Shown here in pieces: positions 23,486 to 35,355 of a stretch of DNA of 64,000 nucleotides. Under the pieces are notes generated by a model. That model was not told where the DNA came from, did not search any database, and saw only the letters and a program-made list of their open reading frames with translations. Both the position numbers and the translations under genes were made by a program. Each line of letters starts with the position of its first letter. Position 1 is the first letter of the stretch. Source of the DNA: Cellulophaga algicola DSM 14237 (GTDB taxonomy: Bacteria; Bacteroidota; Bacteroidia; Flavobacteriales; Flavobacteriaceae); assembly GCF_000186265.1 (NCBI RefSeq), contig NC_014934.1, forward strand, positions 3,596,001 through 3,660,000. The letters run 5' to 3'.

Positions 23486-23944
23486 GTGATTCTAGATTAT
23501 ATTATAGCCATGTTATGGAGTATTTCTCCTTTTGGAGAAGCTAAAGTTGGTATTCCCTTTGGTTTGTTAAGAGGGTTAAATATCTATTTGGTTTTTTTAC
23601 TTTGTTTTACGGCAAACGTGCTAGTTTTTCCATTAATGATGTTTTTTTTAGATAAAATTAACCATTACTTTTTACGTTGGAAATTTTATAAAAAATCTGC
23701 CATCTATATCGCTAGAAAAGCAAAAGTAGGATCAGGAGATAAAATTAAGAAATACGGTTTTTGGGGTCTTATATTTTTTGTAATGCTACCCGTACCGGGT
23801 ACAGGTGTTTATGCAGGGAGTATTGCCACCTATTTATTTAAGATAGAAAAGAAAAAAGCTTTTTTAGCCAATACGATAGGCATCTTTTTCTCTTCTTTAA
23901 TTATTTGGGTTACTACAGTTTTAACCATGAAAGGCATTTCATAA
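23486..23944 (+). CDS. Small multidrug export-like membrane protein (COG2426)
   Basis: 152 residues from a GTG; an ATG at 23510 would give 144. The sequence SPFGEAKVGIPFGLLRGL followed by four to five hydrophobic helices, and VMLPVPGTGVYAGSIAT, match the Sm_multidrug_ex (COG2426) family, a DedA-like group of small inner-membrane proteins with no firm function. The paired GEAKVGIP and PVPGTGVYAG hairpins resemble re-entrant loops of DedA flippases. A lipid or drug transport role is inference. It sits alone between the polysaccharide locus and the nos region. Confidence 0.8.
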   Translation: MILDYIIAMLWSISPFGEAKVGIPFGLLRGLNIYLVFLLCFTANVLVFPLMMFFLDKINHYFLRWKFYKKSAIYIARKAKVGSGDKIKKYGFWGLIFFVMLPVPGTGVYAGSIATYLFKIEKKKAFLANTIGIFFSSLIIWVTTVLTMKGIS

Positions 23945-24158
23945 AGAAATACGTTATTCCTCTTTTTCCTTTGTCTTTCATTCTCAAACAAGAAATTGGT
24001 TCTTAGATAATCATAAGAGCTATTAATTAAAATGATATTCAGCCTTAGGATTGTACTCCTTTAGCGATCATTTGTCATCTTATTAGGCATTAAGAAAACA
24101 CCTACTAAGGGGGGAGTGATCTTCCTGTAAGCCTTATATACGCAGATACTTGAATATA

Positions 24159-24203
24159 GAACAGCTACAGCCTACTATTTTAAATAGTAGGCTGTAGCTG
24201 TTC
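24159..24203. repeat. 45-base perfect inverted repeat, 22-base arms
   Basis: Positions 24159-24180 and 24182-24203 are exact reverse complements around one T at 24181. The RNA would fold to a very long stem. There is no uninterrupted T run on either side, so it is not a textbook terminator. It lies 215 bases after the COG2426 stop and 208 before the first nos gene. Confidence 0.9.
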
Positions 24204-24343
24204 ATGCGCTTGTTTCTTTCAATTTCTTTTCATGTTTTATTGCGGCACTACTAAATTTCTGAGGCGAAATATTTGAGATTATGGAGCTGCATAATATCTA
24301 TTTTATTTTAAAAGGATTGATAAAAAAGACATTTTTATCCTTT

Positions 24344-24361
24344 ATATGATTCTTATCATAT
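24344..24361 (+). promoter_or_regulatory. FNR/CRP-family operator upstream of the nos cluster
   Basis: ATATGATTCTTATCATAT is a perfect palindrome with 7-base arms around TCTT. Its core TGAT-N4-ATCA matches the FNR-type consensus TTGAT-N4-ATCAA except at the outer bases. The centre is 43 bases before the start predicted from the -7 box at 24382, close to the class II activator position. A Crp/Fnr-family regulator responding to low oxygen or nitric oxide is the likely ligand. Confidence 0.7.
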
Positions 24362-24381
24362 AATTAACGTTTCTAAGACGC

Positions 24382-24389
24382 TACTTTTG
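24382..24389 (+). promoter_or_regulatory. Putative -7 box of the nos promoter
   Basis: TACTTTTG fits TAnnTTTG. There is no TTG at the usual -33 distance; that space is taken by the FNR-type box, as expected for an activator-dependent promoter. Transcription would start near 24395, giving a leader of about 16 bases before the ATG at 24411. The box also overlaps an upstream in-frame TTG, which argues against that TTG being the start. Confidence 0.5.
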
Positions 24390-24410
24390 AGGAATAATTT
24401 AAAAACTAAT

Positions 24411-24926
24411 ATGATGAAAATAGTAATTAAAAGTGCCGCAATCATTTTTTCACTTTTATTAACGGCCTGCGGAGGCAAAGAAGAAAAGAAGAAAGATGAC
24501 TTTAATATCAATCGTGAAAAAACGAAAACAGAAAAACCAGCAGAAACGGCTCCGACCACTAGTGCAATTCCTGCATCCAAACGCGTAGATCTTGAAAATA
24601 AAGGGGTAGGTCCTGTAACGTCAGTAACCTTAGCTCCAGATATTGATCAGGCTTTGGCTAAAAAAGGGGAAGAGGTTTACACGCAAATGTGTCTTGCTTG
24701 TCATAAGACAGACAAAAAGTTTATTGGTCCTGCACCAACAGGTATTTTGAAAAGACGTAGTCCGGAATGGGTAATGAACATGATTTTGAATCCTGAAGTT
24801 ATGATTAAAGAAGATCCTTTAGCAAAAGAGCTTATGGCTGAGTTTAATGGTGCGCCAATGGCGAATCAAGGACTTACCGAAGATCAAGCACGTAGTGTCC
24901 TTGAATTTTTTAGAACCCTAGAATAA
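24411..24926 (+). CDS. Nos-associated c-type cytochrome lipoprotein
   Basis: 171 residues from the ATG at 24411. Lipobox LTAC with lipid Cys20, then a Lys/Glu-rich linker (21-60). One class I cytochrome c domain has C94-L-A-C97-H98 for haem and a candidate axial Met in APMANQG (about 150). It probably donates electrons to the nitrous oxide reductase encoded 59 bases downstream; clade II nos clusters typically carry such a cytochrome in place of NosR. Membrane or outer-membrane anchoring follows from the lipobox. It is the first gene after the FNR-type box. Confidence 0.88.
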   Translation: MMKIVIKSAAIIFSLLLTACGGKEEKKKDDFNINREKTKTEKPAETAPTTSAIPASKRVDLENKGVGPVTSVTLAPDIDQALAKKGEEVYTQMCLACHKTDKKFIGPAPTGILKRRSPEWVMNMILNPEVMIKEDPLAKELMAEFNGAPMANQGLTEDQARSVLEFFRTLE

Positions 24927-24985
24927 TAAACGATTAGTTTTTAATGCACTTACGCTTAAATAAAATAACCACAAATACACTACAA

Positions 24986-26947
24986 ATGAAAAAGTATTCA
25001 TTTTACCTAGTAACCCTATTGGGGTCGGTCCTGTTTCTTTCAGGTTGCGGCGATCAAAACGGTAATGCATCATCAAATGGTGCGCTTGCTTCTAATAATG
25101 CAGAGAAAGTATATGTAGCTCCTGGCGAACATGATGAATTTTATGCCTTTATGTCTGGTGGATATAGCGGTAATGTAACCGTTTATGGTCTTCCTTCTGG
25201 ACGTATGTTCAAAGAGATTCCTGTTTTTTCTCAGTTTCCGACCAATGGTTATGGCTATTCTGAAGAAACAAAACCTATGTTAGAGACTTCTTTTGGCTTT
25301 ATCCCGAATGACGATTCTCACCACCCGGATATTTCTCAGACCAATGGAGAATTAGATGGCAGATGGTTATTTATAAATGGAAATAATACGCCACGTATAG
25401 CGCGTATCGATTTAAAAACATTTGAAACTGCTGAGATTATTGAAGTACCAAATAGTGCCGGTAACCATAGTTCTTCATATATCACTGAAAATTCTGAGTA
25501 CGTGGTGGCAGGAACTCGTTTTTCAGTACCTATACCTCAAAGAGACATGCCAATAAAAGATTATAAAGGAAACTTTAAAGGTGCCTTGTCTTTTATTAGT
25601 ATTGAGCCTGAAACGGGTCATATGGATATTAAATTCCAATTGATTATGCCTGGCTTTAATTATGATCTTTCACATCCAGGACGTGGTAAATCTCACGGCT
25701 GGTTTTTCTTTACAACCTATAATACAGAGGAAGCTAATTCGCTGTTAGAGGTTAACGCTTCTCAAAACGATAAAGATTTTATCGCAGCGGTAAACTGGAA
25801 GAAGATTGAAGAATATGTTGCAAATGGTGGAGGTACTATGGTGCCTGCTAATTATACTCATAATGTGTATAGTGATGAAACACATAGCGCTACTTCAACG
25901 ATGAAAAAAGAAGTGCTTACTGTAGATCCTACAAAAGTACCTGGGGCTGTATTCTTTATGCCAACACCAAAATCTCCGCACGGGGTAGATGTAAATCCAA
26001 CAGGAGATTACATTGTAGGTAATGGAAAGCTTTCTGCAGATCTTACCGTTTTCTCATTTGATAAAATGATAGCAGCGATTGATGCTAAAAAGTATGATGG
26101 TGAAGCTTATGGTCTTCCTATTTTGAAATTTGAGGATGTCTTGGCTGGTCAGGTTAAAAGTGGAGGATTAGGTCCATTGCATACCGAATTTGATGATAAA
26201 GGTAATGCGTATACTACATTCTTCATTTCTTCAGAAGTGGTAAAATGGAAAGTAGGCACCTGGGAGGTTATTGATAGAAAGCCAACTTTTTACTCGGTTG
26301 GTCACTGTATGATTCCTGGAGGAAACTCTAGAAAACCTTTTGGTAAATACCTAATATCCTTGAACAAAATTACCAAAGATAGATACCTGCCAACTGGTCC
26401 CGAGTTAGAACACTCTGCACAGTTGTATGATATCTCTGGAGATAAAATGGAGCTTATTTATGATTTTCCAACACATGGTGAGCCACATTACGCAGCAGCT
26501 ATTCCTGCTTCAATATTAGCCCCTAAATCACAGAAGATTTACAAGCTTGCAGAAAACGAACATCCATTTGCTACCAAAAATGTTTCAGATGCGCGTGTTG
26601 AAAGAGAAGGTAATGTTGTACATGTGTATATGGCAATGATTCGTAGTCACTTTACTCCCGATAATATTGAAGGTATTAAAGTGGGTGATACCGTGTATTT
26701 CCATATTACAAATCATGAGCAAGATTTTGATGTTCCGCATGGTTTTATGATGATAGGAGCCAATAATTCAGGACTATTGATTATGCCAGGGCAAACAAAA
26801 ACTACCGTATGGGAACCGAAGCAAGAAGGTGTATGGCCATTTTATTGTACCGATTTCTGTTCTGCTTTACATCAAGAAATGCAAGGGTATATACGTGTTT
26901 CACCTGCTAGTTCTAATCTAGATCTATCTTGGTCTTTAGGAGAATAA
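24986..26947 (+). CDS. nosZ: Nitrous oxide reductase, clade II (Sec-type, lipoprotein)
   Basis: 653 residues from the ATG at 24986; an upstream ATG at 24944 would add 14. The signal is a Sec lipoprotein type with lipobox LSGC (Cys21), not a twin-arginine signal, which marks the atypical clade II enzymes. The beta-propeller carries the CuZ histidines: DDSHHPD, SPHGVDVNPTG, PLHTEFDDKG, VGHCMIPGG and GEPHYAA. The C-terminal cupredoxin has the CuA set: DFDVPHGFMM and CTDFCSALHQEMQ. It reduces N2O to N2. The protein appears intact, with no missing copper ligand that I can see. Confidence 0.97.
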   Translation: MKKYSFYLVTLLGSVLFLSGCGDQNGNASSNGALASNNAEKVYVAPGEHDEFYAFMSGGYSGNVTVYGLPSGRMFKEIPVFSQFPTNGYGYSEETKPMLETSFGFIPNDDSHHPDISQTNGELDGRWLFINGNNTPRIARIDLKTFETAEIIEVPNSAGNHSSSYITENSEYVVAGTRFSVPIPQRDMPIKDYKGNFKGALSFISIEPETGHMDIKFQLIMPGFNYDLSHPGRGKSHGWFFFTTYNTEEANSLLEVNASQNDKDFIAAVNWKKIEEYVANGGGTMVPANYTHNVYSDETHSATSTMKKEVLTVDPTKVPGAVFFMPTPKSPHGVDVNPTGDYIVGNGKLSADLTVFSFDKMIAAIDAKKYDGEAYGLPILKFEDVLAGQVKSGGLGPLHTEFDDKGNAYTTFFISSEVVKWKVGTWEVIDRKPTFYSVGHCMIPGGNSRKPFGKYLISLNKITKDRYLPTGPELEHSAQLYDISGDKMELIYDFPTHGEPHYAAAIPASILAPKSQKIYKLAENEHPFATKNVSDARVEREGNVVHVYMAMIRSHFTPDNIEGIKVGDTVYFHITNHEQDFDVPHGFMMIGANNSGLLIMPGQTKTTVWEPKQEGVWPFYCTDFCSALHQEMQGYIRVSPASSNLDLSWSLGE

Positions 26948-26975
26948 AGTAAGAAGAAGCTATGTGGTAATAAAG

Positions 26976-27012
26976 AAAAGCAGGCTGTGTATGAAGACCG
27001 ACCTGCTTTTTT
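26976..27012 (+). terminator. Hairpin between nosZ and the accessory nos genes
   Basis: AAAAGCAGG (26976-26984) pairs with CCTGCTTTT (27002-27010) across a 17-base loop, followed by more T. It resembles a weak or partial terminator and could make nosZ mRNA more abundant than the maturation genes, or protect its 3' end. Confidence 0.6.
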
Positions 27013-27060
27013 ATGAAGCACTGAAATGTTTGATAGAAATTATTTTTAAGAGAATATAAC

Positions 27061-27678
27061 ATGAAAAGAGCAAGTATATTAATGATCATTGGTTCTTTAT
27101 GCTTATTGGGGTTGTTTAAATTTCCACTTTGGAATATTATGCTAGGCGCACCACAATATCCAGACCCATTAGGGATGAATATTCATATTACAGGGATACA
27201 AGGCGTTTCTGAATTTGATTTACAAAATATAGATGGTCTTAACCATTACATTGGTATGAAGACCATTCCTAAAGCCGATGAAATGTGGGAATTTAAAGCT
27301 TTTCCTATCGTAATTATTGGTATGGCATTTTTAGGAGTGATCATAGGTTTTTTAGGCTTTTTTGGCAAAGTTGATTATCGTTATTTTTTAGGTTGGTTTG
27401 TCTTGATGTCCATTTTAGGCGTTATGGGGATGTATGATTTTAATGTGTGGTTAACCGACTATGGTTCTAATTTAGACCCACACGCTATTATAAAAGTAAC
27501 CAATGAAGATGGAACCCCTATGACCTATAAACCGCCGCTTTTTGGGTATAAAAAATTATTGAATTTCAATGTGAGTTCTATGCCTGCACTAGGGGCTTGG
27601 GCTATGTTTTTAGGAATGTCCCTTACCGTAGTAGCCTTTTTAGTAGGATGGAAAAGTAAACGTTTACCCGCTTCATAA
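27061..27678 (+). CDS. Nos-cluster four-helix membrane protein of unknown function
   Basis: 205 residues with four hydrophobic helices (about 5-22, 77-98, 102-122, 178-198). An extracytoplasmic loop (23-75) contains DPLGMNIHITGIQGVSEFDLQNIDGLNHYIGMK, split by several conserved-looking polar residues including two His. It lies 113 bases after nosZ and 21 before nosL, where clade II clusters of Bacteroidota carry a conserved membrane protein (often called NosB-like). His and Met residues in the loops could bind copper, but this is inference. The family is conserved by context, not by known activity. Confidence 0.75.
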   Translation: MKRASILMIIGSLCLLGLFKFPLWNIMLGAPQYPDPLGMNIHITGIQGVSEFDLQNIDGLNHYIGMKTIPKADEMWEFKAFPIVIIGMAFLGVIIGFLGFFGKVDYRYFLGWFVLMSILGVMGMYDFNVWLTDYGSNLDPHAIIKVTNEDGTPMTYKPPLFGYKKLLNFNVSSMPALGAWAMFLGMSLTVVAFLVGWKSKRLPAS

Positions 27679-27699
27679 AAAGATATAAATTAACAGATC

Positions 27700-28137
27700 A
27701 TGAAAAACCGAACATTTTTAGGGGTACTATGTTTCCTGATAGTAGCTGCATGCAATACGGAACCTAAAGCTATAGCTTATGGTTCAGAAGGATGTCATTT
27801 TTGTAGCATGACCATTGTAGATACCCAACATGCCGCACAGTTTATGACCAAAAAGGGGAGAAGTTATTCTTTTGATGCCACAGAATGTATGTTCAACTAT
27901 TTGCAGGACGTAGCTCCAGAAACAATTGCGTTATATCGTGTAAATGATTATAATAATCCTGGAGTTTTTATTGATGCTAAAGAAGCTACCTATTTAATTA
28001 GCAAAAATATTCCTAGCCCTATGGGCGGAAATTTAAGTGCTTTTACAACAAAAGAAGCTGCAGAGAAAATGCAACAAGAGCATACGGGAAGCGTGTATTC
28101 ATGGAAAGAATTACAATCTAAATTTAACAAAGGCTAG
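27700..28137 (+). CDS. nosL: NosL copper chaperone lipoprotein
   Basis: 145 residues. Lipobox ending AAC (Cys18), then the NosL copper motif C32-H-F-C35-S-M37. FMTKKGRSYSFDATECMFNYL is the family signature block. NosL delivers Cu(I) for the CuZ site of NosZ. The lipoprotein signal places it on the periplasmic side of a membrane. It is 24 bases from nosD in the same direction. Length is typical for the short form of the family. Confidence 0.93.
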   Translation: MKNRTFLGVLCFLIVAACNTEPKAIAYGSEGCHFCSMTIVDTQHAAQFMTKKGRSYSFDATECMFNYLQDVAPETIALYRVNDYNNPGVFIDAKEATYLISKNIPSPMGGNLSAFTTKEAAEKMQQEHTGSVYSWKELQSKFNKG

Positions 28138-28161
28138 TAAATTAATACATACACTACATTA

Positions 28162-29400
28162 ATGCACCTAAAACCTAAATTTCTTTTAATAGCCTTATGT
28201 TTTTTAAGTACTTCCTTATGGGCAAAAACAATAACTGTTTGTTCAGAATGTGCTGTAAAATCTATAGCTAGTGCTATTAAAACAGCAGTAGCCTATGATA
28301 CTATTGTCATAAAAAAAGGAACCTATTACGAGTATAATTTACTTATAGATAAACCCTTAGTGTTAATCGGAGAAAATTTTCCAGTGATTGATGGGCAAGA
28401 TAAAGGCGAAATTATCAGAATTACATCCGATAATGTAACTATAGACGGACTTTTTATAATAAATGTGGGCACAAGCTATACCTCAGATTATGCCGCTATT
28501 CGCGTAGTGAGAAGTGATTCCTTCTTAATACAAAATGTAGTTTTAGAAAAATTGTTTTTTGGTATTTATTTAGAAAAATCTAATAACGGTAGGGTATATC
28601 ATAATAAAATAATAGGGGATGCGAAGGATGAGTATAACTCCGGGAATGGCATTCAATTATGGTATTCTAAGAATGTCGTGGTAGAAAAAAATATTGTGCA
28701 AGGTGCTCGAGATGGTATCTATTTAGAATTTTCTGATAATATAATAATTAACGATAATATAAGTACAAAAAACCTTCGGTATGGCTTACATTTTATGTTT
28801 TCTGATGATGATGTGTATACCAATAATATTTTTGAAAGTAATGGAGCAGGAGTTGCTGTAATGTTTTCAAAAAATATTAAGATGACAGGGAATACCTTTA
28901 AAAAGAATTGGGGCACAGCTGCATTTGGTCTTTTATTGAAAGAAATTAATGACGCCGATATTAGTGAAAATACCTTTGAAGAAAATACGATTGGAATCAA
29001 CATAGAAGGATCAAACCGAATAACGTATGCCAATAATAATTTTATCAATAACGGCTGGGCTATTAAAGTCCTCGGCGCATGTTATGATAATTCATTTACA
29101 AAAAATAATTTTTTGTACAACAGTTTTGATGTTTCTTATAACAGCAATATCAATGACAATGTTTTTGAACAAAATTATTGGAGTAATTATACGGGCTATG
29201 ATTTAGATAAAAATGGAATAGGAGACATTCCTTATAGACCCGTGAAATTATTTTCTTATATCGTAAATAAAACGCCAGAATCCATTGTACTTCTCAGAAG
29301 TTTATTTATGGATATTATAGATTTCTCTGAAAAAGTAACTCCTGTTTTTACCCCTGATAATTTAGTGGATGCAAAACCATCAATGAAAAGAATAGAATGA
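28162..29400 (+). CDS. nosD: NosD periplasmic beta-helix maturation protein
   Basis: 412 residues. A Sec signal ends at LWAKT (about 22). The rest is a right-handed beta-helix with NosD/CASH repeats (VVEKNIVQGARDGIYLEFSDN; GLHFMFSDDDVYTNN) and the late motif NYWSNYTGYDLDKNGIGDIPYRP, characteristic of NosD. NosD works with the NosFY ABC transporter to supply sulfur or otherwise mature the CuZ centre. Its stop overlaps the nosF start (ATGA). Although also a beta-helix, it is not close to the three paralogues in the polysaccharide locus. Confidence 0.93.
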   Translation: MHLKPKFLLIALCFLSTSLWAKTITVCSECAVKSIASAIKTAVAYDTIVIKKGTYYEYNLLIDKPLVLIGENFPVIDGQDKGEIIRITSDNVTIDGLFIINVGTSYTSDYAAIRVVRSDSFLIQNVVLEKLFFGIYLEKSNNGRVYHNKIIGDAKDEYNSGNGIQLWYSKNVVVEKNIVQGARDGIYLEFSDNIIINDNISTKNLRYGLHFMFSDDDVYTNNIFESNGAGVAVMFSKNIKMTGNTFKKNWGTAAFGLLLKEINDADISENTFEENTIGINIEGSNRITYANNNFINNGWAIKVLGACYDNSFTKNNFLYNSFDVSYNSNINDNVFEQNYWSNYTGYDLDKNGIGDIPYRPVKLFSYIVNKTPESIVLLRSLFMDIIDFSEKVTPVFTPDNLVDAKPSMKRIE

Positions 29401-30107
29401 TTAAGATAGAAAATTTACATAAAAAATTTGGAAAGACTCCTATTCTTATGGGGTTAGATCTAAGCATAAAACAAAGTGGCATTTTTGCTATTTTAGGTCC
29501 TAATGGCTCTGGTAAGACAACTTTAATTAAGTGTATATTGGGTATGATAGTCCCGAACAAAGGTACTATCGCTATAAATGGAGGTTTAATTAAAAATAAA
29601 TGGAAATATAGACAAGAAATTGAGTATTTACCTCAGATTGCAAATTTCCCTAGTAATCTTAAAGTCAGAGAATTAATTCGGATGATTAAAGATTTAAGGC
29701 AAAAACCAAGCGATGAAGAACGTTTAATTGAACGCTTTGAATTGGAGCCATTTCTAGATAAAAAATTAGCCATTCTTTCTGGAGGTACCAAACAAAAAGT
29801 AAATATTGTCATTGCTTTTATGTTTGATACACCTTTAATTATCCTTGATGAACCCACTACAGGTCTAGATCCTGTGGCATTAATCAAATTAAAAGAACTT
29901 ATCCAAATAGAAAAACAAAAAGGAAAGACCATACTTGTTTCCTCACACATCATGCAGTTTGTAGAAGAGATAGCAGATGAAATTGTATATCTTTTAGAAG
30001 GGAAAATATACTTCAAAGGAAGTATAGCTGCGCTAAAAGAAAAAACACAACAAACGAATGTAGAACATGCCATTGCGGCAATTGCAAAACCTGTGTCACA
30101 TGTTTAA
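29397..30107 (+). CDS. nosF: NosF ABC transporter ATPase
   Basis: 236 residues. Walker A GPNGSGKTT (about 33-41), Q-loop in EYLPQIANFP, signature LSGGTKQKVN (a variant LSGGxxQ), Walker B LIILDEPTTGLDP and switch His in SSHIMQF are all present. It powers the NosDFY complex needed for NosZ copper-sulfur cluster assembly. Translation is coupled to nosD by an ATGA overlap and to nosY by an 8-base overlap. Confidence 0.95.
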   Translation: MIKIENLHKKFGKTPILMGLDLSIKQSGIFAILGPNGSGKTTLIKCILGMIVPNKGTIAINGGLIKNKWKYRQEIEYLPQIANFPSNLKVRELIRMIKDLRQKPSDEERLIERFELEPFLDKKLAILSGGTKQKVNIVIAFMFDTPLIILDEPTTGLDPVALIKLKELIQIEKQKGKTILVSSHIMQFVEEIADEIVYLLEGKIYFKGSIAALKEKTQQTNVEHAIAAIAKPVSHV

Positions 30108-30882
30108 GATATTAAAATATAGTTTTTATGATCTTATGCGTAGCCGTTGGAGCTATGTTTATTTTCTGTTCTATTTATTATTGGGTTTTGTATTGTTATT
30201 TTTAAATAATGATGTATCAAAAGCGGTGATTACTTTAATGAATATTATTATTGTTTTGGTTCCTTTAATTAGTACAATCTTCGGAATTATGTACTATTAC
30301 AATTCCAAAGAATTTACAGAACTTTTATTAGCGCAACCCATTAAAAGAACATCTATTTTCTTAGGACAATACTTGGGAGTAGCGGGTTCTTTGGCGCTAA
30401 GTCTTATTTTAGGTTTGGGGATTCCTTTTGTACTCTATGGACTTTTTAAGAGTAGTGCTATCTTTGACTTTTCACTGTTATTAGTAACAGGGACTTTCTT
30501 AACCCTTATTTTTTCAGCACTATCTTTTAATATTGCAATTTCTAATGAGAATACGATTAAAGGGTTTGGGTATGCAGTGCTGCTATGGTTATTTATGGCC
30601 GTTATTTATGATGGATTATTTTTAATGTCACTCATCATTTTTAACGAATACCCTCTTGATAATTTTTCATTAGTCGCCTCCATGTTTAATCCTATAGATT
30701 TATCGCGGACCTTAATCCTATTAAAATTAGATATTTCGGCATTATTAGGATATACAGGAGCTGTTTTTAAGCAATTTTTTGGAACAAATATGGGAGTAAT
30801 CATTTCAATGTTAGTACTTATGTTATGGACGATACTTCCTGTATGGAGATTACTTTATAAATCTAAAAGAAAAGATTTTTAG
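30100..30882 (+). CDS. nosY: NosY ABC transporter permease
   Basis: 260 residues from the ATG at 30100 (MFKILKYSFYDLMRSRW, a typical ABC-2 permease start); the frame is open to an ATG at 30067. Six hydrophobic helices and TELLLAQPIKRTSIFLGQYLG, the coupling region of the ABC-2 type, support the call. It forms the membrane part of NosDFY. The gene ends the nos cluster; nosR and nosX are absent from the window, as is usual for clade II. Confidence 0.92.
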   Translation: MFKILKYSFYDLMRSRWSYVYFLFYLLLGFVLLFLNNDVSKAVITLMNIIIVLVPLISTIFGIMYYYNSKEFTELLLAQPIKRTSIFLGQYLGVAGSLALSLILGLGIPFVLYGLFKSSAIFDFSLLLVTGTFLTLIFSALSFNIAISNENTIKGFGYAVLLWLFMAVIYDGLFLMSLIIFNEYPLDNFSLVASMFNPIDLSRTLILLKLDISALLGYTGAVFKQFFGTNMGVIISMLVLMLWTILPVWRLLYKSKRKDF

Positions 30883-31062
30883 CAATCAGCTCATCGTATT
30901 TCAAGTACTTAGTGCATCAATTAGATTGCTCCGTAACCTAATTCATGGATTATATTTAGAGAAACATTTAAAATTATAGGAAATTTACTTATTTGTTTAA
31001 AAACGCTATAAAAAATATCCTTATAATTTAGAAAAGAATAAATTCAAACATATATTTGTAGC

Positions 31063-31428
31063 ATGAAACATAGTTTAATCATAATAGCAATTCTTATTTG
31101 CTTAAAACCTACTTTCCCATTGGTGGAGTATGTTTTTAATTATGATTATATATCAGAAGTTCTTTGTATTAATAAAGATAAGCCAGAACTAAATTGTAAT
31201 GGTAAATGTTATTTAATGACAAAATTAGCGGAGGAATCTAAAGCGAATGATACCAATAAAAAAACGCCTATTGAAAATGCTTTTTCTCTAGTCTATTTTT
31301 TAGCGTATACTGCAGATTTTAATGCACCTTCTAATACTACTGAATATCTTGTCTTGCCTATAACGTATAGCGAAACCTTATATTCATTTAATTTCTTCAA
31401 CAACCTTATTAAACCACCTATTGTATAG
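31063..31428 (+). CDS. Small secreted/membrane protein with CNGKC motif, unknown
   Basis: 121 residues. The N-terminus is a hydrophobic signal (MKHSLIIIAILICLKPTFP). It is followed by VEYVFNYDYISEVLCINKDKPE, then LNCNGKCYLMTKL and a Lys/Asn-rich linker. Three cysteines (one in EVLCI, two in NCNGKC) could bind a metal or form a disulfide. I associate this family with copper or metal loci of Bacteroidota but know no function. It is 180 bases after nosY and 204 before the MbnP-like gene, in the same direction. A TATATTTG box (31051-31058) lies just before its start. Confidence 0.65.
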   Translation: MKHSLIIIAILICLKPTFPLVEYVFNYDYISEVLCINKDKPELNCNGKCYLMTKLAEESKANDTNKKTPIENAFSLVYFLAYTADFNAPSNTTEYLVLPITYSETLYSFNFFNNLIKPPIV

Positions 31429-31575
31429 CAGTATACAATAGGAGTTAAAATTAAGCACGCATTATAGTAGTACGATAAGGGTAAGGGTTCATCATACATG
31501 ACCTTCTTATCTAGTTCTTTTATATTTCTAATGTATAGATTTAACTCTATCCTTATTTTTTACAAACAAAAAACA

Positions 31576-31600
31576 GCACGAGCTCTTTTAAGAGCTGTGC
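31576..31600 (+). promoter_or_regulatory. Leader hairpin before the MbnP-like gene
   Basis: GCAC-G-AGCTCTT pairs with AAGAGCTGTGC around TT, giving an 11-pair stem with one bulged G. It is followed by no T run and lies 33 bases before the ATG at 31633. It could stabilise the messenger or act as a control element. Confidence 0.45.
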
Positions 31601-31632
31601 AGTCATACACCCTATATTTAATAAACAAACGA

Positions 31633-32424
31633 ATGAAAAATTTTAAAATAGCCTTATTGGCACTAATTTCTATACTTGCAATTTCTTGTGATAATGATGA
31701 CGATGATGCTATGGCATTAACAGGATCAGGAGAAGTTTCGGTAACTTTTGATAATGGATACGCAGGTAATGACCTTCTTTTAGGGACTACAAATGCAGCA
31801 AATTCTAATGGGGAAACATTAACGGTTACCCGTTTAAGCTATATCGTTAGTAATTTTAGTTTAATTGATGTAGATGGAAATGAATATGTTTTTCCTAAAG
31901 ATGATAGTTACTTTATCATAAATCAAGAGGCAGATCTAGATGATATTTCATTACCTAATATTCCAGCAGGAGCATACACTACCCTTAAATTTGGCATTGG
32001 CGTAGATGATGAAAAATACCAACAAGGGGGTGAAGGTCAGGGCGATTTATGGACACGTGCAGAAGAAAATAATTTGACTTGGTCATGGACTGCAGGCTAT
32101 AAATACATTAATTATGAAGGTACTTTTACGTCTGCTACAGTTACAGATGAAACTGATTTTAAAGTGCATTTAGGAAGGCTAGGCGATCAAGTTAATTATG
32201 AGGAAGTTACTTTGGCTTTGCCAACAAATGTAACCGTAAGTGATGAAATGGATTCTAATATTCATTTAAAAATAGATGCTTCTAAAATTTTGGCCTCTAT
32301 ACATAATCTCCTACTTTCTGATCAAGCCGTATTGATGACAGATCCTGAAAAAGCACCATTAATAGCAGAAAATATAGCTACAATGTTCGTTGTAGATCAC
32401 GTACATAATGGAAACGGACATTAA
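31633..32424 (+). CDS. MbnP-like copper-binding lipoprotein
   Basis: 263 residues from the ATG at 31633; the open frame extends to 31498, but only this start gives a proper lipoprotein signal with lipobox ISC (Cys19) followed by an Asp-rich DNDDDDDA. The body matches the MbnP-like family: LTVTRLSYIVSNFSLID, YFIINQEADLDD, LTWSWTAGYKYINYEG. In characterised MbnP proteins a Trp is oxidised to kynurenine by the partner dihaem enzyme MbnH, creating a copper site; the WSW motif here is a candidate. The partner homologue is the next gene. Copper handling for NosZ is inferred from the neighbourhood. Confidence 0.85.
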   Translation: MKNFKIALLALISILAISCDNDDDDAMALTGSGEVSVTFDNGYAGNDLLLGTTNAANSNGETLTVTRLSYIVSNFSLIDVDGNEYVFPKDDSYFIINQEADLDDISLPNIPAGAYTTLKFGIGVDDEKYQQGGEGQGDLWTRAEENNLTWSWTAGYKYINYEGTFTSATVTDETDFKVHLGRLGDQVNYEEVTLALPTNVTVSDEMDSNIHLKIDASKILASIHNLLLSDQAVLMTDPEKAPLIAENIATMFVVDHVHNGNGH

Positions 32425-32445
32425 TCTTAAAAATCATACTATAAA

Positions 32446-32479
32446 ACTACCAGCAATACATTTTAGTATTGCTGGTAGT
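32446..32479 (+). promoter_or_regulatory. Intergenic hairpin between MbnP-like and MbnH-like genes
   Basis: ACTACCAGCAATAC (32446-32459) pairs perfectly with 32466-32479 around a 6-base loop. There is no T run after it, so it looks like an mRNA-processing or attenuating stem that could raise MbnP over MbnH. It fills most of the 67-base gap. Confidence 0.65.
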
Positions 32480-32491
32480 AATAGCCTACGG

Positions 32492-33529
32492 ATGAAGAAT
32501 ACACTTATCTTTTTTAGTTTGGTTTTTATTCTTTCTTGTTCAAATGAAACTGAATATGTACGAGTAAATGAGCCTCTGGTTTTTGAACAGCCCAGTAATT
32601 TTCCTGCTCTGGCTTATGATTTGGAAGCTAACCCTCCTACAGAAATTGGATTTGAGTTAGGTAAAAAGCTTTTCTATGATGGTGATTTATCACGAGTAGG
32701 ATTTATTTCTTGTGGTTTTTGTCATGAGCAGAAAGATGCTTTTACACATCATGGACATCAATTTAGCCATGGCGCAGATGATTTGGAGGGAACTAGAAAT
32801 ACGCCTTCCATTCAAAATATGGCCTATATGACGCATTTTATGTGGGACGGTGCCATAAATCATTTAGACCTGTTTCCTATTGCTCCGATTACTAATGAGG
32901 TAGAGATGGATGAATCTATAACAAACGTTCTTGCTAAACTAGCGGCCAATAGTGAATACCAGAAATTGTTTTCGGAAGCATTTGTCGATGGAGAAGTAAA
33001 CATGGAAAATTTTTTAAAGGCCCTATCTCAGTTTATGGTGATGATGGTATCTTCAAATTCTAAATATGATAAATATGTTAGGAACGAAGATGGTATTACT
33101 TTAACATCGGAAGAGCTTCAAGGCTTAGCGATTTTTGAAACCAATTGTGCTACCTGCCATGCTACAGATTTATTTACCGATAAATCTTTTAGAAATAATG
33201 GCTTAGCTCCAAATTCAAAATTAGATGACCTAGGGCGTTATTTAGTAACAGGTTTAGAAGCCGATAAATACAAATTTAAGGTGCCTAGTTTACGAAATGT
33301 AGCATTAACAGAGCCATATATGCATGATGGTAGATTTGGTAGCCTAGAAGCCGTATTAGATTTTTATACTGATGGCATAATAACTAGTCCCACCTTAGAT
33401 AGCGCATTACAAGATAATGGAGTTTTAGGAATTTCATTATCTAGCGCAGATAAAGCAGCTTTAGTTGCTTTCTTGAATACATTAACAGATGAAGAATATA
33501 TAGCTGATGAACGATTTGCAGAATTTTAA
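32492..33529 (+). CDS. MbnH-like dihaem cytochrome c peroxidase family lipoprotein
   Basis: 345 residues from the ATG at 32492; an upstream ATG at 32408 overlaps the previous gene and spoils the signal. Lipobox LSC (Cys16). Two haem c sites, C74-G-F-C77-H78 and C219-A-T-C222-H223, place it in the CcpA/MauG/MbnH family. KFKVPSLRNVALTEPYMHDGRFGSLEAVLDFY is the usual C-terminal block. Its position directly after an MbnP-like gene indicates the MbnH branch, which oxidises a Trp in MbnP. Ordinary peroxide removal is the alternative. Confidence 0.88.
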   Translation: MKNTLIFFSLVFILSCSNETEYVRVNEPLVFEQPSNFPALAYDLEANPPTEIGFELGKKLFYDGDLSRVGFISCGFCHEQKDAFTHHGHQFSHGADDLEGTRNTPSIQNMAYMTHFMWDGAINHLDLFPIAPITNEVEMDESITNVLAKLAANSEYQKLFSEAFVDGEVNMENFLKALSQFMVMMVSSNSKYDKYVRNEDGITLTSEELQGLAIFETNCATCHATDLFTDKSFRNNGLAPNSKLDDLGRYLVTGLEADKYKFKVPSLRNVALTEPYMHDGRFGSLEAVLDFYTDGIITSPTLDSALQDNGVLGISLSSADKAALVAFLNTLTDEEYIADERFAEF

Positions 33530-34526
33530 ATTAAACAGAATACTTTTTTTTATTTTACTAGTAGCACTAAATTTTTCGACAACTTTTGCGAAGGATAGGC
33601 TTCCAGTAGTAACACCAAACCCATTGCCTTGTTTAGGTCATTTTCATGGTCTGGATTATGTATATGATTTTTGTGATACTTGTGGTTGCGGCAGTAGCGG
33701 CGGAAGTATGGGGTATGGAACCGGATTAAATACTAATTTTATAGGGGTAAGATATATAGGACAGCAATACCGTTCTAGAGACGGAATTTTTAATGATTCT
33801 CCTTGGGTAGATGAAAATTTTAACACCATGCAGTTGTGGGGAAATTTTCCGGTATCAAAACGGACCGTAGTTAATGTTATAGTTCCTTATCAGTTTCATA
33901 GTAGAAATTTTATAGACGGTACTTCTCAAAATATTAGTGGTTTAGGCGATGCGAGTATACTTGCTATGTATAACCTGCTAAAAGTAAAATCAGACAGTAT
34001 CGTATCCATTAAACCAGAGCATTATGTACAAATTGGAGGAGGGATTAAAATGCCTACAGGAGCGTTTGACAAAGAAAATAATGAAGATAGCGTAAACCCA
34101 AGTTTTCAATTGGGTACTGGTAGTTGGGATTATGTTGTGGCGGCTAATTACGGTTTTAATTATAGAAATTGGGGAATTAGTACCTTGGTTAATTATGCTA
34201 TGAAAACCGAAAATCCTAAGCAGTATCAATTCGGGAATCAGTTTAACTATGCGCTAAATGCTTTTAAAACCTACTATATAGCTAATAATTTTTCAATGAC
34301 ACCCATTCTTGGTATTGCGGGTGAAGTTTTTGAAACCAATAAAGAATACGGGGCCGATGTGGCCAATACCAAAGGAGATCTATTTATGGGAAAAGTTAGT
34401 TTAGAAGCTTCTTATAGTAGATATGCTTTGGGCGTAGTGTCTATGTTACCCATTACGCAAAATCTAAATAACAATAAGGTTGAGTTGAAAAATAGGTTGT
34501 CTATTTATTTAAATGTCAATTTTTAA
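33507..34526 (+). CDS. Cys-rich outer-membrane beta-barrel protein linked to MbnPH
   Basis: 339 residues. Sec signal (about 1-28, ending TTFAKD), then a short segment PLPCLGHFHGLDYVYDF and CDTCGCGSSGGSMGYGTG (about 50-70) with four closely placed Cys, and about twelve amphipathic strands ending in LYLNVNF, a typical barrel terminus. The mature N-terminus also has two His in GHFHG. It overlaps the peroxidase gene by 23 bases, so it belongs to the same operon. The Cys/His cluster suggests copper or haem binding at the outer membrane, and a channel for copper is an attractive guess. I do not know a characterised homologue. Confidence 0.75.
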   Translation: MNDLQNFKLNRILFFILLVALNFSTTFAKDRLPVVTPNPLPCLGHFHGLDYVYDFCDTCGCGSSGGSMGYGTGLNTNFIGVRYIGQQYRSRDGIFNDSPWVDENFNTMQLWGNFPVSKRTVVNVIVPYQFHSRNFIDGTSQNISGLGDASILAMYNLLKVKSDSIVSIKPEHYVQIGGGIKMPTGAFDKENNEDSVNPSFQLGTGSWDYVVAANYGFNYRNWGISTLVNYAMKTENPKQYQFGNQFNYALNAFKTYYIANNFSMTPILGIAGEVFETNKEYGADVANTKGDLFMGKVSLEASYSRYALGVVSMLPITQNLNNNKVELKNRLSIYLNVNF

Positions 34527-34552: not shown

Positions 34553-34595
34553 AAAAGGTCACCTATAGAGCACGGCTAAAATAGGTGGCCTTTTT
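34553..34595 (+). terminator. Rho-independent terminator of the MbnP/MbnH operon
   Basis: AAAAGGTCACCTAT (34553-34566) pairs with ATAGGTGGCCTTTT (34581-34594), all positions including one U-G wobble, with a 14-base loop and a T run. It lies 26 bases after the stop of the outer-membrane gene. Confidence 0.88.
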
Positions 34596-34726: not shown

Positions 34727-34872
34727 TTACCTGTAAAAATTTGTGTATTCTATTGGAATACAGTTTGTTGCAGCTCAACGACTATAGCGCTCCATTCGTG
34801 TGTTTTGCACTTACAAATACAGAAATAGGATGTTTCTTTGTAGTGGAATTAACCTACAGAAATATTTTAATT

Positions 34873-35355
34873 ATGTTACGAATCAAATTTTTATCAATTG
34901 CTTTTCTTTCTTTATTAATGACATTAACATCTTGTTCAACTGCAACACAAGAAGAAGAAGTAGCTATTTATGAAAAGGTTTCTATTTCTACTATAGAAGA
35001 AGAGGTTTTAGATCTTGTAAATGAATATAGAGTTTCTCAAGGATTAGAGGTAGTTATTTTTGGAGATGTTGCTTATGATTTTGCAGCGTCACACAATGAG
35101 TATATGATTGAGCAAGGTGTAATTAGCCACGATAACTTTATTAGTAGGTCTACAGATCTAACGGTTAAAGCAGATGCCGATTTTGTTTCTGAAAATGTAG
35201 GTAAAGATTTTACAACAGCAAGAGGTGTTGTCAATGCTTGGATTAATAGTGCTACACATAAAAAAGTAATGGAAGGAGATTTTACCTATACTGCAATTAG
35301 CGTTAAAGAAGATGCTAATGGTGTTCTTTACTTTACAGAATTGTTTTACAAATAA
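34873..35355 (+). CDS. CAP/SCP-domain lipoprotein
   Basis: 160 residues from the ATG at 34873; the frame is open to a TTG at 34741 but only this start gives a lipoprotein signal, with lipobox TSC (Cys21). The CAP domain follows: VLDLVNEYRVSQGLEVV, AASHNEYMIEQGVISHDNF (with the family His and Glu), VSENVG and VNAWINSATHKKVM. Many bacterial CAP proteins are of unknown function; some bind lipid or act on peptidoglycan. It is a single-gene unit under the CGGTGAA array. Confidence 0.85.
   Translation: MLRIKFLSIAFLSLLMTLTSCSTATQEEEVAIYEKVSISTIEEEVLDLVNEYRVSQGLEVVIFGDVAYDFAASHNEYMIEQGVISHDNFISRSTDLTVKADADFVSENVGKDFTTARGVVNAWINSATHKKVMEGDFTYTAISVKEDANGVLYFTELFYK

Follow-up and report, generated by a model that had tools for sequence, protein, structure and literature searches.

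A free-standing four-gene MbnP/MbnH cassette of Flavobacteriaceae, located beside the nos genes in Cellulophaga algicola, as a candidate for copper handling at the cell surface

We studied four consecutive genes located directly behind the nitrous oxide reductase (nos) genes of Cellulophaga algicola DSM 14237 within a 64-kb stretch of its genome (in the following the window; position 1 is its first letter and all coordinates refer to its + strand). They encode a small CNGKC protein, an MbnP-family lipoprotein, an MbnH-like di-haem protein and an outer-membrane barrel. A preliminary description of this DNA had read them as a copper-acquisition module joined to nitrous oxide reductase, which is partly supported. 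We find that CNGKC-MbnP-MbnH-barrel is a discrete, free-standing cassette of Flavobacteriaceae, and we consider it probable (at roughly 0.68) that it is independently promoted, handles copper at the cell surface and is not dedicated to NosZ.

All four open reading frames are present in the order described, i.e., on the same strand after nosY with a gap of 180 bp behind the nosY stop codon at 30882. The cassette comprises the following features.

31045..31062, + strand: predicted cassette promoter with the box TATATTTG (TAnnTTTG, -7 type) at 31051-31058, 4 bases upstream of the start codon
31063..31428, + strand: CNGKC protein of 121 aa with C-x9-CNGKC and a C-terminal Pro-Pro, without Pfam or NCBIfam family
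31633..32424, + strand: MbnP-family lipoprotein (PF20243) with WSW at residues 150-152 and an acidic stretch past the lipid-bearing Cys
32492..33529, + strand: MbnH/MauG-like di-haem lipoprotein with CGFCH and CATCH; Tyr292 conserved
33507..34526, + strand: outer-membrane barrel with an N-terminal CDTCGC and a predicted FapF / COG4313-channel-like fold
34574..34590, + strand: weak terminator-like stem-loop with T run

To assess the four genes as a unit, we used 80 flavobacterial loci, which are the best 80 of 247 confirmed loci retrieved with the MbnP alignment. Clustering of their genes places, relative to MbnP, the CNGKC protein at position -1 in 75 loci, MbnH at +1 in all 80 and the barrel at +2 in 76, while no other family occupies any one position in more than 14/80 loci. 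The four-gene order is thus far beyond chance. When only the window's proteins serve as tblastn queries, MbnP is found in 80, MbnH in 80, the barrel in 79, the CNGKC protein in 69 and nosZ in 0 of the loci; with queries added, all four families are found in 80/80. We also searched the flanks (up to 10 kb per side; 11/80 loci are shorter than 20 kb) by tblastn with nos, nir and nor queries. Here, denitrification genes were found in 0/80 loci.

The MbnP-like lipoprotein with its WSW motif, as previously described, is well backed by its family model PF20243 (141.9 bits compared to a cut-off of 27). Its start is probably the ATG at 31633 rather than the start of the open reading frame at 31498. 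The model TIGR04052 (MbnP_like_WxW / four-Cys) yields 37.7 bits and stays below its cut-off of 140. Among the relatives with a lipobox found, the lipid-bearing Cys is the sole Cys in 73/74, i.e., they do not carry four Cys. Sequence searches of the PDB were weak: phmmer with the single protein gave no match, and a profile search ranked MbnP 7l6g (E 0.29) behind two unrelated chains. The relation to 7l6g is therefore settled by fold search. For the AlphaFold model (predicted local distance difference test, pLDDT, of 88), the six top PDB matches of Foldseek are chains of 7l6g (E 3.0e-8 to 1.1e-7, TM 0.46-0.56). Below these, matches are weak, and the first are Bacteroides putative cell adhesion proteins.

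Both Trp of the WxW are conserved in 82/82 aligned MbnPs (31/31 in an earlier, smaller set). His179, which aligns with a His of 7l6g, is found in 80/82, and each His of a C-terminal HxH is likewise kept in 80/82. The two MbnPs without His179 are divergent tandem copies. A strict pattern had placed His179 in only 60/80 MbnPs and was discarded as too strict given the alignment. Tandem arrangements are seen in L104 and L114, where a second, divergent MbnP-MbnH pair (at about 11.9-13.8 kb) separates the first MbnH from the barrel.

A lipobox was detected in 77/82 MbnPs and 56/82 MbnHs. Counted from the lipid-bearing Cys, the stretch +2 to +6 contains three or more acidic residues in 57/77 MbnPs, compared to 13/158 other lipobox reading frames from the same loci. 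For MbnH, at least 2 acidic residues in this range are seen in 44/56, compared to 46/158. According to PMC5080379, acidic stretches act as surface-export signal of Bacteroidetes lipoproteins (LES), with SDDFE derived for F. johnsoniae. Because of its LES-like acidic stretch, we infer that MbnP faces outward and is exposed at the cell surface. This bears on the proposed surface-to-periplasm copper route: a unit that includes an outer-membrane barrel stands, while the direction becomes uncertain since MbnP itself looks surface-exposed.

The di-haem enzyme was also identified correctly. The protein, whose start is likely 32492, matches CCP_MauG (PF03150) with 174.7 bits. Its best NCBIfam match is the MbnH model TIGR04039 with 220.6 bits, yet this is below the cut-off of 362.85. 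The closest solved structure is 6e1c (E 1.8e-39), whose entry names a di-heme enzyme and which we take to be MbnH itself. Two CxxCH haem sites are present in 82/82 MbnHs, as is Tyr292, which aligns with a Tyr of 6e1c. Going by the offset of the local alignment, Tyr292 may be equivalent to the axial Tyr of MauG (Tyr294).

For the window's barrel, no family was found in Pfam or NCBIfam; among 26 relatives, 1 matches Phenol_MetA_deg and 2 weakly match Autotransporter. The AlphaFold model predicts a beta-barrel with pLDDT 80 (mostly below 50 for residues 27-67), for which FapF (PDB 5o65-5o68) and a COG4313 channel (4rl8) are the nearest folds at 13-15% identity. CDxCGC is present in 78/78 barrels. 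That is, the predicted outer-membrane barrel is upheld, while its description as 'Cys-rich' comes down to CDTCGC plus one preceding Cys.

The CNGKC protein is probably membrane-anchored at its N terminus or exported. C-x-G-x-C is found in 100/100 members of the family, all of which also carry Pro-Pro near the C terminus. Two CNGKC-family genes are present in 21/80 loci (L103, L106, L107, L109, L111, L113-L116, L118, L119, L123, L125, L129, L131, L148, L158-L160, L166 and L167). Furthermore, 15/80 loci encode, beside or between the CNGKC-family genes, a lipoprotein of some 144 aa that has no Pfam family.

Given these components, we propose the following mechanism. MbnH, as a di-haem enzyme of MauG type, would oxidise the first Trp of the WxW of MbnP to kynurenine and thereby create a Cu(I) site, such that the lipoprotein MbnP could hold copper at the outer face. 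The CDxCGC-bearing barrel with its FapF/COG4313-like fold would be the partner for passage through the outer membrane, and the CNGKC protein, a small Cys-bearing protein of the envelope, may accept the metal or hand it on. The copper would be for general use by the cell's copper enzymes, i.e., NosZ when present, NirK and cytochrome oxidase. The 2021 paper on MbnP is said to report that MbnH turns a Trp of MbnP into kynurenine. For MopE and CorA of methanotrophs, a copper site made by converting Trp to kynurenine is described in PMC3621798 and PMC3912023, and the latter locates CorA, an analogous kynurenine copper protein, on the cell surface.

Next, we studied whether the cassette has a promoter of its own. 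About 75 bp up to the ATG of the CNGKC gene, including TATATTTG, are conserved between the window and G308/G299, two genomes in which the cassette occurs without nos. Within the 80 loci, a TAnnTTTG box lies at most 25 nt from an in-frame start in 64/98 CNGKC genes, and in 32 of these 64 the distance is exactly 4 nt. For comparison, 128/1188 other reading frames have the box in the 33 nt upstream of their called start. The two tests choose starts differently, and hence the peak at 4 nt is a stronger sign than the rate of the box. By itself, TAnnTTTG shows no enrichment in the window (93 found, 108 expected), so the information lies solely in its constant placement ahead of CNGKC genes. Neither the extended pattern TTTG-N-TAnnTTTG (2 found, 5.96 expected) nor a sigma-70 scan (50 promoter-like sites compared to 53.6 expected) is informative in the window. 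The conserved spacing suggests that the mRNA of the cassette is leaderless, and, going by these sequences, the cassette keeps its own predicted promoter with or without nos.

The upstream neighbours of the cassette are as follows.

23486..23944, + strand: Sm_multidrug_ex gene (PF06695), which directly precedes the cassette in five Cellulophaga relatives without nos
24346..24359, + strand: ATGAT-N4-ATCAT palindrome upstream of the nos block; none at the cassette promoter
24387..30882, + strand: nos block outside the cassette, with cytochrome c, nosZ, orf205, nosL, nosD, nosF and nosY

The window's nosZ belongs to clade II (TIGR04246, 942.5 bits), and family models back the identity of nosZ, nosL and nosD. 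nosY has no NCBIfam match, and the labels of nosY and nosF rest on position and context. The block resembles clade II nos clusters, with cytochrome c, nosZ, orf205 and nosL (and the start of nosD where a short locus reaches it) ordered as in the loci of 30 relatives; nosF and nosY complete this order in G304, G311 and G314. Unlike the window, clade II nos clusters elsewhere usually have no MbnP/MbnH neighbour. A single perfect copy of ATGAT-N4-ATCAT, which we assume to be of Crp/Fnr type, is found in the 64 kb (0.14 expected). It precedes nos in the window and likewise in G306, G304 and G311, while no copy with up to 2 mismatches was found before the cassette in the window.

Among 18 Cellulophaga genomes, MbnP is present in 12, NosZ in 5 and both in 2, and in those 2 they are linked. 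The cassette directly follows the Sm_multidrug_ex gene, without nos, in G299, G300, G307, G308 and G313. G304 carries nos directly behind this gene, without the cassette, and in the window's genome and G306 nos lies between the two. For five further Cellulophaga genomes with the cassette, which are without NosZ, the window's flanking genes are not in the retrieved stretch. The site behind Sm_multidrug_ex (window 23945-31062; L076, L082-L086, L088) is thus variable, with nos only, cassette only, or both. The position of the cassette behind nosY in C. algicola is then probably due to nos and cassette sharing this site. When the two species that carry nos are compared, third positions agree to 78-81% for nosZ, nosD and nosY and to 66-72% for three flanking genes, but to 56-59% for MbnP, MbnH and barrel and to 87% for the CNGKC gene. 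These values are unequal, and therefore the genes differ in their histories.

To relate the cassette to NosZ on a larger scale, we investigated 299 genomes of the family. A cassette genome was defined by a barrel match above 200 bits (n=39); five weak matches (41 to 66 bits) and a broken match in G236 were left out, and NosZ matches under the family cut-off were not counted. In 38/39 cassette genomes, MbnP lies within 5 kb of the barrel. The remaining one, G015, has a fragmented genome and no MbnP match, and its locus was not retrieved; another locus, L174, was retrieved but is unused in our counts. NosZ is found in 9/39 cassette genomes compared to 130/260 others (odds ratio 0.30, p 0.0018, uncorrected for phylogeny). 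Among the 9 genomes with both, only in the window's genome are they at most 20 kb apart; five show distances of about 50 kb or more, and in three they are located on different contigs. Within the Flavobacterium group (229 genomes, 31 of which have both), MbnP and NosZ likewise show a negative association (odds ratio 0.48, p 0.02).

We also inspected genomes that have NosZ as well as MbnP (n=34). In 37 MbnP loci from them, 14 of which are full cassettes, no denitrification gene was found in the retrieved flanks. Of the 31 Flavobacterium genomes, G689, G753 and G783 are not among the retrieved loci, and the same holds for one small second MbnP contig of G645. As a counterpart, 20 Flavobacterium loci from genomes without NosZ include 18 full cassettes; in 2 of the 20, a distant globin match (36 and 40%) is the sole match to the denitrification queries.

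These results allow us to judge whether the cassette is a copper-delivery module dedicated to nitrous oxide reductase and co-transcribed with nos. Consistent with this are the 180-bp gap on the same strand with no terminator found between, the linkage in both Cellulophaga species that have both, and a Flavobacterium genome (G560) with nos 4.4 kb from the cassette. We nevertheless regard it as very improbable, given the cassette's own conserved promoter sequence, the putative Crp/Fnr-type site found before nos only, the 30/39 cassette genomes without NosZ over the cut-off, and the 37 MbnP loci without flanking denitrification gene in genomes that do have NosZ. An assignment as nos accessory genes, judged by recurrent linkage to and co-occurrence with nosZ, was likewise tried and dropped (0/80 loci, negative association). 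The joining to nitrous oxide reductase claimed by the preliminary description is thus not supported: the cassette is free-standing with its own conserved promoter sequence, and NosZ is rarer in genomes that carry it. Its place beside nos appears to be a local feature of gene order and not a line of supply dedicated to these genes, and adjacency in one genome can mislead. Since nitrous oxide reductase needs copper, the cassette may still matter to NosZ as a general supplier.

Several observations weigh against our reading, on the side of nos as well as on that of copper. With no terminator-like site found between nosY and the cassette, read-through from nosY is possible. The 80 loci are the nearest relatives by MbnP, and the window's own species was perhaps left out, while all association statistics lack a correction for phylogeny. 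Two Flavobacterium cassettes sit in denitrification islands, and so the linkage is perhaps not wholly accidental. In G560 (genus group taken as Flavobacterium), a full cassette follows 4.4 kb after nosY, with genes for a globin, ScdA/RIC, fasciclin and a Crp-type regulator in between. In G814 (Flavobacterium; L172 2150-10556), the cassette lies 186 bp behind a same-strand nirK row and about 31 kb from nosZ. This row comprises NirK (TIGR02376, over the cut-off), cytochrome c, an FGE-type protein, SCO1/SenC and an alginate-export-type porin. It is preceded by nor-like genes (identified by eye; Pfam: COX1, cytochrome c, VWA), with nosZ beyond. On the side of copper, 7l6g has a Met that aligns two residues ahead of the first Trp of the WxW. 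At this position the window's MbnP has Leu, and the Met is also replaced in 12/82 relatives (10 Leu, 2 Ile); therefore, the copper site of MbnP may differ. The MbnP structure paper of 2021 reportedly places His and Met ligands near the kynurenine. Finally, Trp118 of MbnH is Tyr in 19/82 relatives. If Trp118 is the MauG-type Trp, this exchange bears on inter-haem electron transfer.

G560 was seen in a sample of 296 genomes of the phylum, 22 of which have NosZ and MbnP. Besides the window's genome, two of them, G560 and G545, show both within 20 kb. The linkage in G545 (L171) was rejected, as it concerns only an MbnP-MbnH pair, without full cassette, that lies 15 kb from nosZ with unrelated genes in between. 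Of the Flavobacterium genomes that have both (n=31), a single one, G560, was seen to carry them on one contig at most 20 kb apart. For Flavobacterium, the rough probability of chance linkage is 0.19 for 1 of 31 genomes within 12 kb and 0.10 for 2 of 31 within 31 kb; for the phylum, it is 0.05 for 2 of 21 other genomes within 31 kb and 0.016 within 16 kb. Draft contigs make these estimates approximate. The preliminary description had proposed a survey of nos neighbourhoods. Overall, in the genomes sampled, the cassette is found beside nos in two Cellulophaga species and 4.4 kb off in one Flavobacterium. The restriction to this one place, which the preliminary description had named as a refuting outcome, nearly holds.

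It is therefore worth asking whether selection sometimes places a general copper supplier near NosZ or NirK, i.e., whether the linkage is functional without being dedicated. Three separate places speak for it, namely the nos site of Cellulophaga, the nos island of G560 (4.4 kb) and the row of NirK and SCO1/SenC in G814 (186 bp). Such linkage is, however, rare (0/80 loci, 0/37 loci from genomes with NosZ), co-occurrence with NosZ is negative, coincidence is left open by the rough chance estimates, and one of the two phylum cases falls short of a full cassette. We thus consider it unlikely. The island cases fit occasional placement of a general copper supplier near copper enzymes, or chance.

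The conserved residues bear on a further alternative, namely that the cassette serves copper defence or storage, or that the modification of MbnP by MbnH serves something other than copper, such as adhesion or another metal. The Met aligned with 7l6g is not conserved in the window, the Foldseek matches after 7l6g are weak and start with putative adhesion proteins, and FapF, the nearest barrel fold, is titled polypeptide transporter, which is more in line with MbnP or a peptide being exported than with copper being imported. Set against this, the WxW is invariant, His179 and the HxH at the C terminus are nearly so, and the modelled fold matches that of the copper protein MbnP 7l6g; we consider this alternative unlikely. 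A role in surface copper handling remains our preferred reading.

We also compared the cassette with known systems. With MbnP/MbnH of methanobactin operons (Methylosinus trichosporium OB3b; 7l6g, 6e1c; TIGR04052/TIGR04039), it shares adjacent genes, the WxW and the MbnP fold. In contrast to MbnP of these operons, the cassette's MbnP has no extra Cys, scores far under the TIGR04052 cut-off, is lipid-anchored and carries a surface-type signal; furthermore, the pair is nearly always accompanied by the CNGKC protein and the barrel. No methanobactin genes were noticed at the locus, where no dedicated search for them was made. MopE/SACCP and CorA/CorB of methanotrophs are alike in pairing a di-haem peroxidase with a surface-located partner whose Cu(I) site contains kynurenine, and their genes are down-regulated by copper; the accessible parts of the respective descriptions (PMC3621798; PMC3912023) mention no barrel or CNGKC partner. 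The barrel resembles FapF and COG4313 channels in its modelled fold but differs from them in sequence.

The MbnP/MbnH pair as such is already known to be widespread, far beyond methanobactin producers, and is covered by GenProp0940, both according to PMC3621798. For the four-gene flavobacterial cassette, no account was found in our literature searches, though the main MbnP/MbnH papers may show it in their neighbourhood analyses. We tentatively suggest, at less than even odds, that the cassette represents a chalkophore-free mode of surface copper capture widespread in Flavobacteriaceae, in which an outward-flipped MbnP, matured by MbnH, would act together with a channel-forming barrel marked by CDxCGC and an envelope protein of the C-x9-C[ND]G[KR]C/Pro-Pro type as a four-part unit not previously defined. 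To our knowledge, copper passage across the outer membrane of Bacteroidota is poorly understood. A compact unit with a putative outward-facing kynurenine-type copper protein and a channel with a conserved Cys motif is a directly testable candidate for such passage.

A single terminator had been described at the end of the cassette. The stem-loop at 34574-34590 fits this position but is weak, as the scanned region holds 10 terminator-like sites compared to 5.3 expected in shuffles. Downstream of it, a CAP-domain protein (PF00188) is encoded at 34741-35355. This gene was not found in the retrieved stretches of G306 and G299, while it likewise lies downstream of the cassette in G307 and G308.

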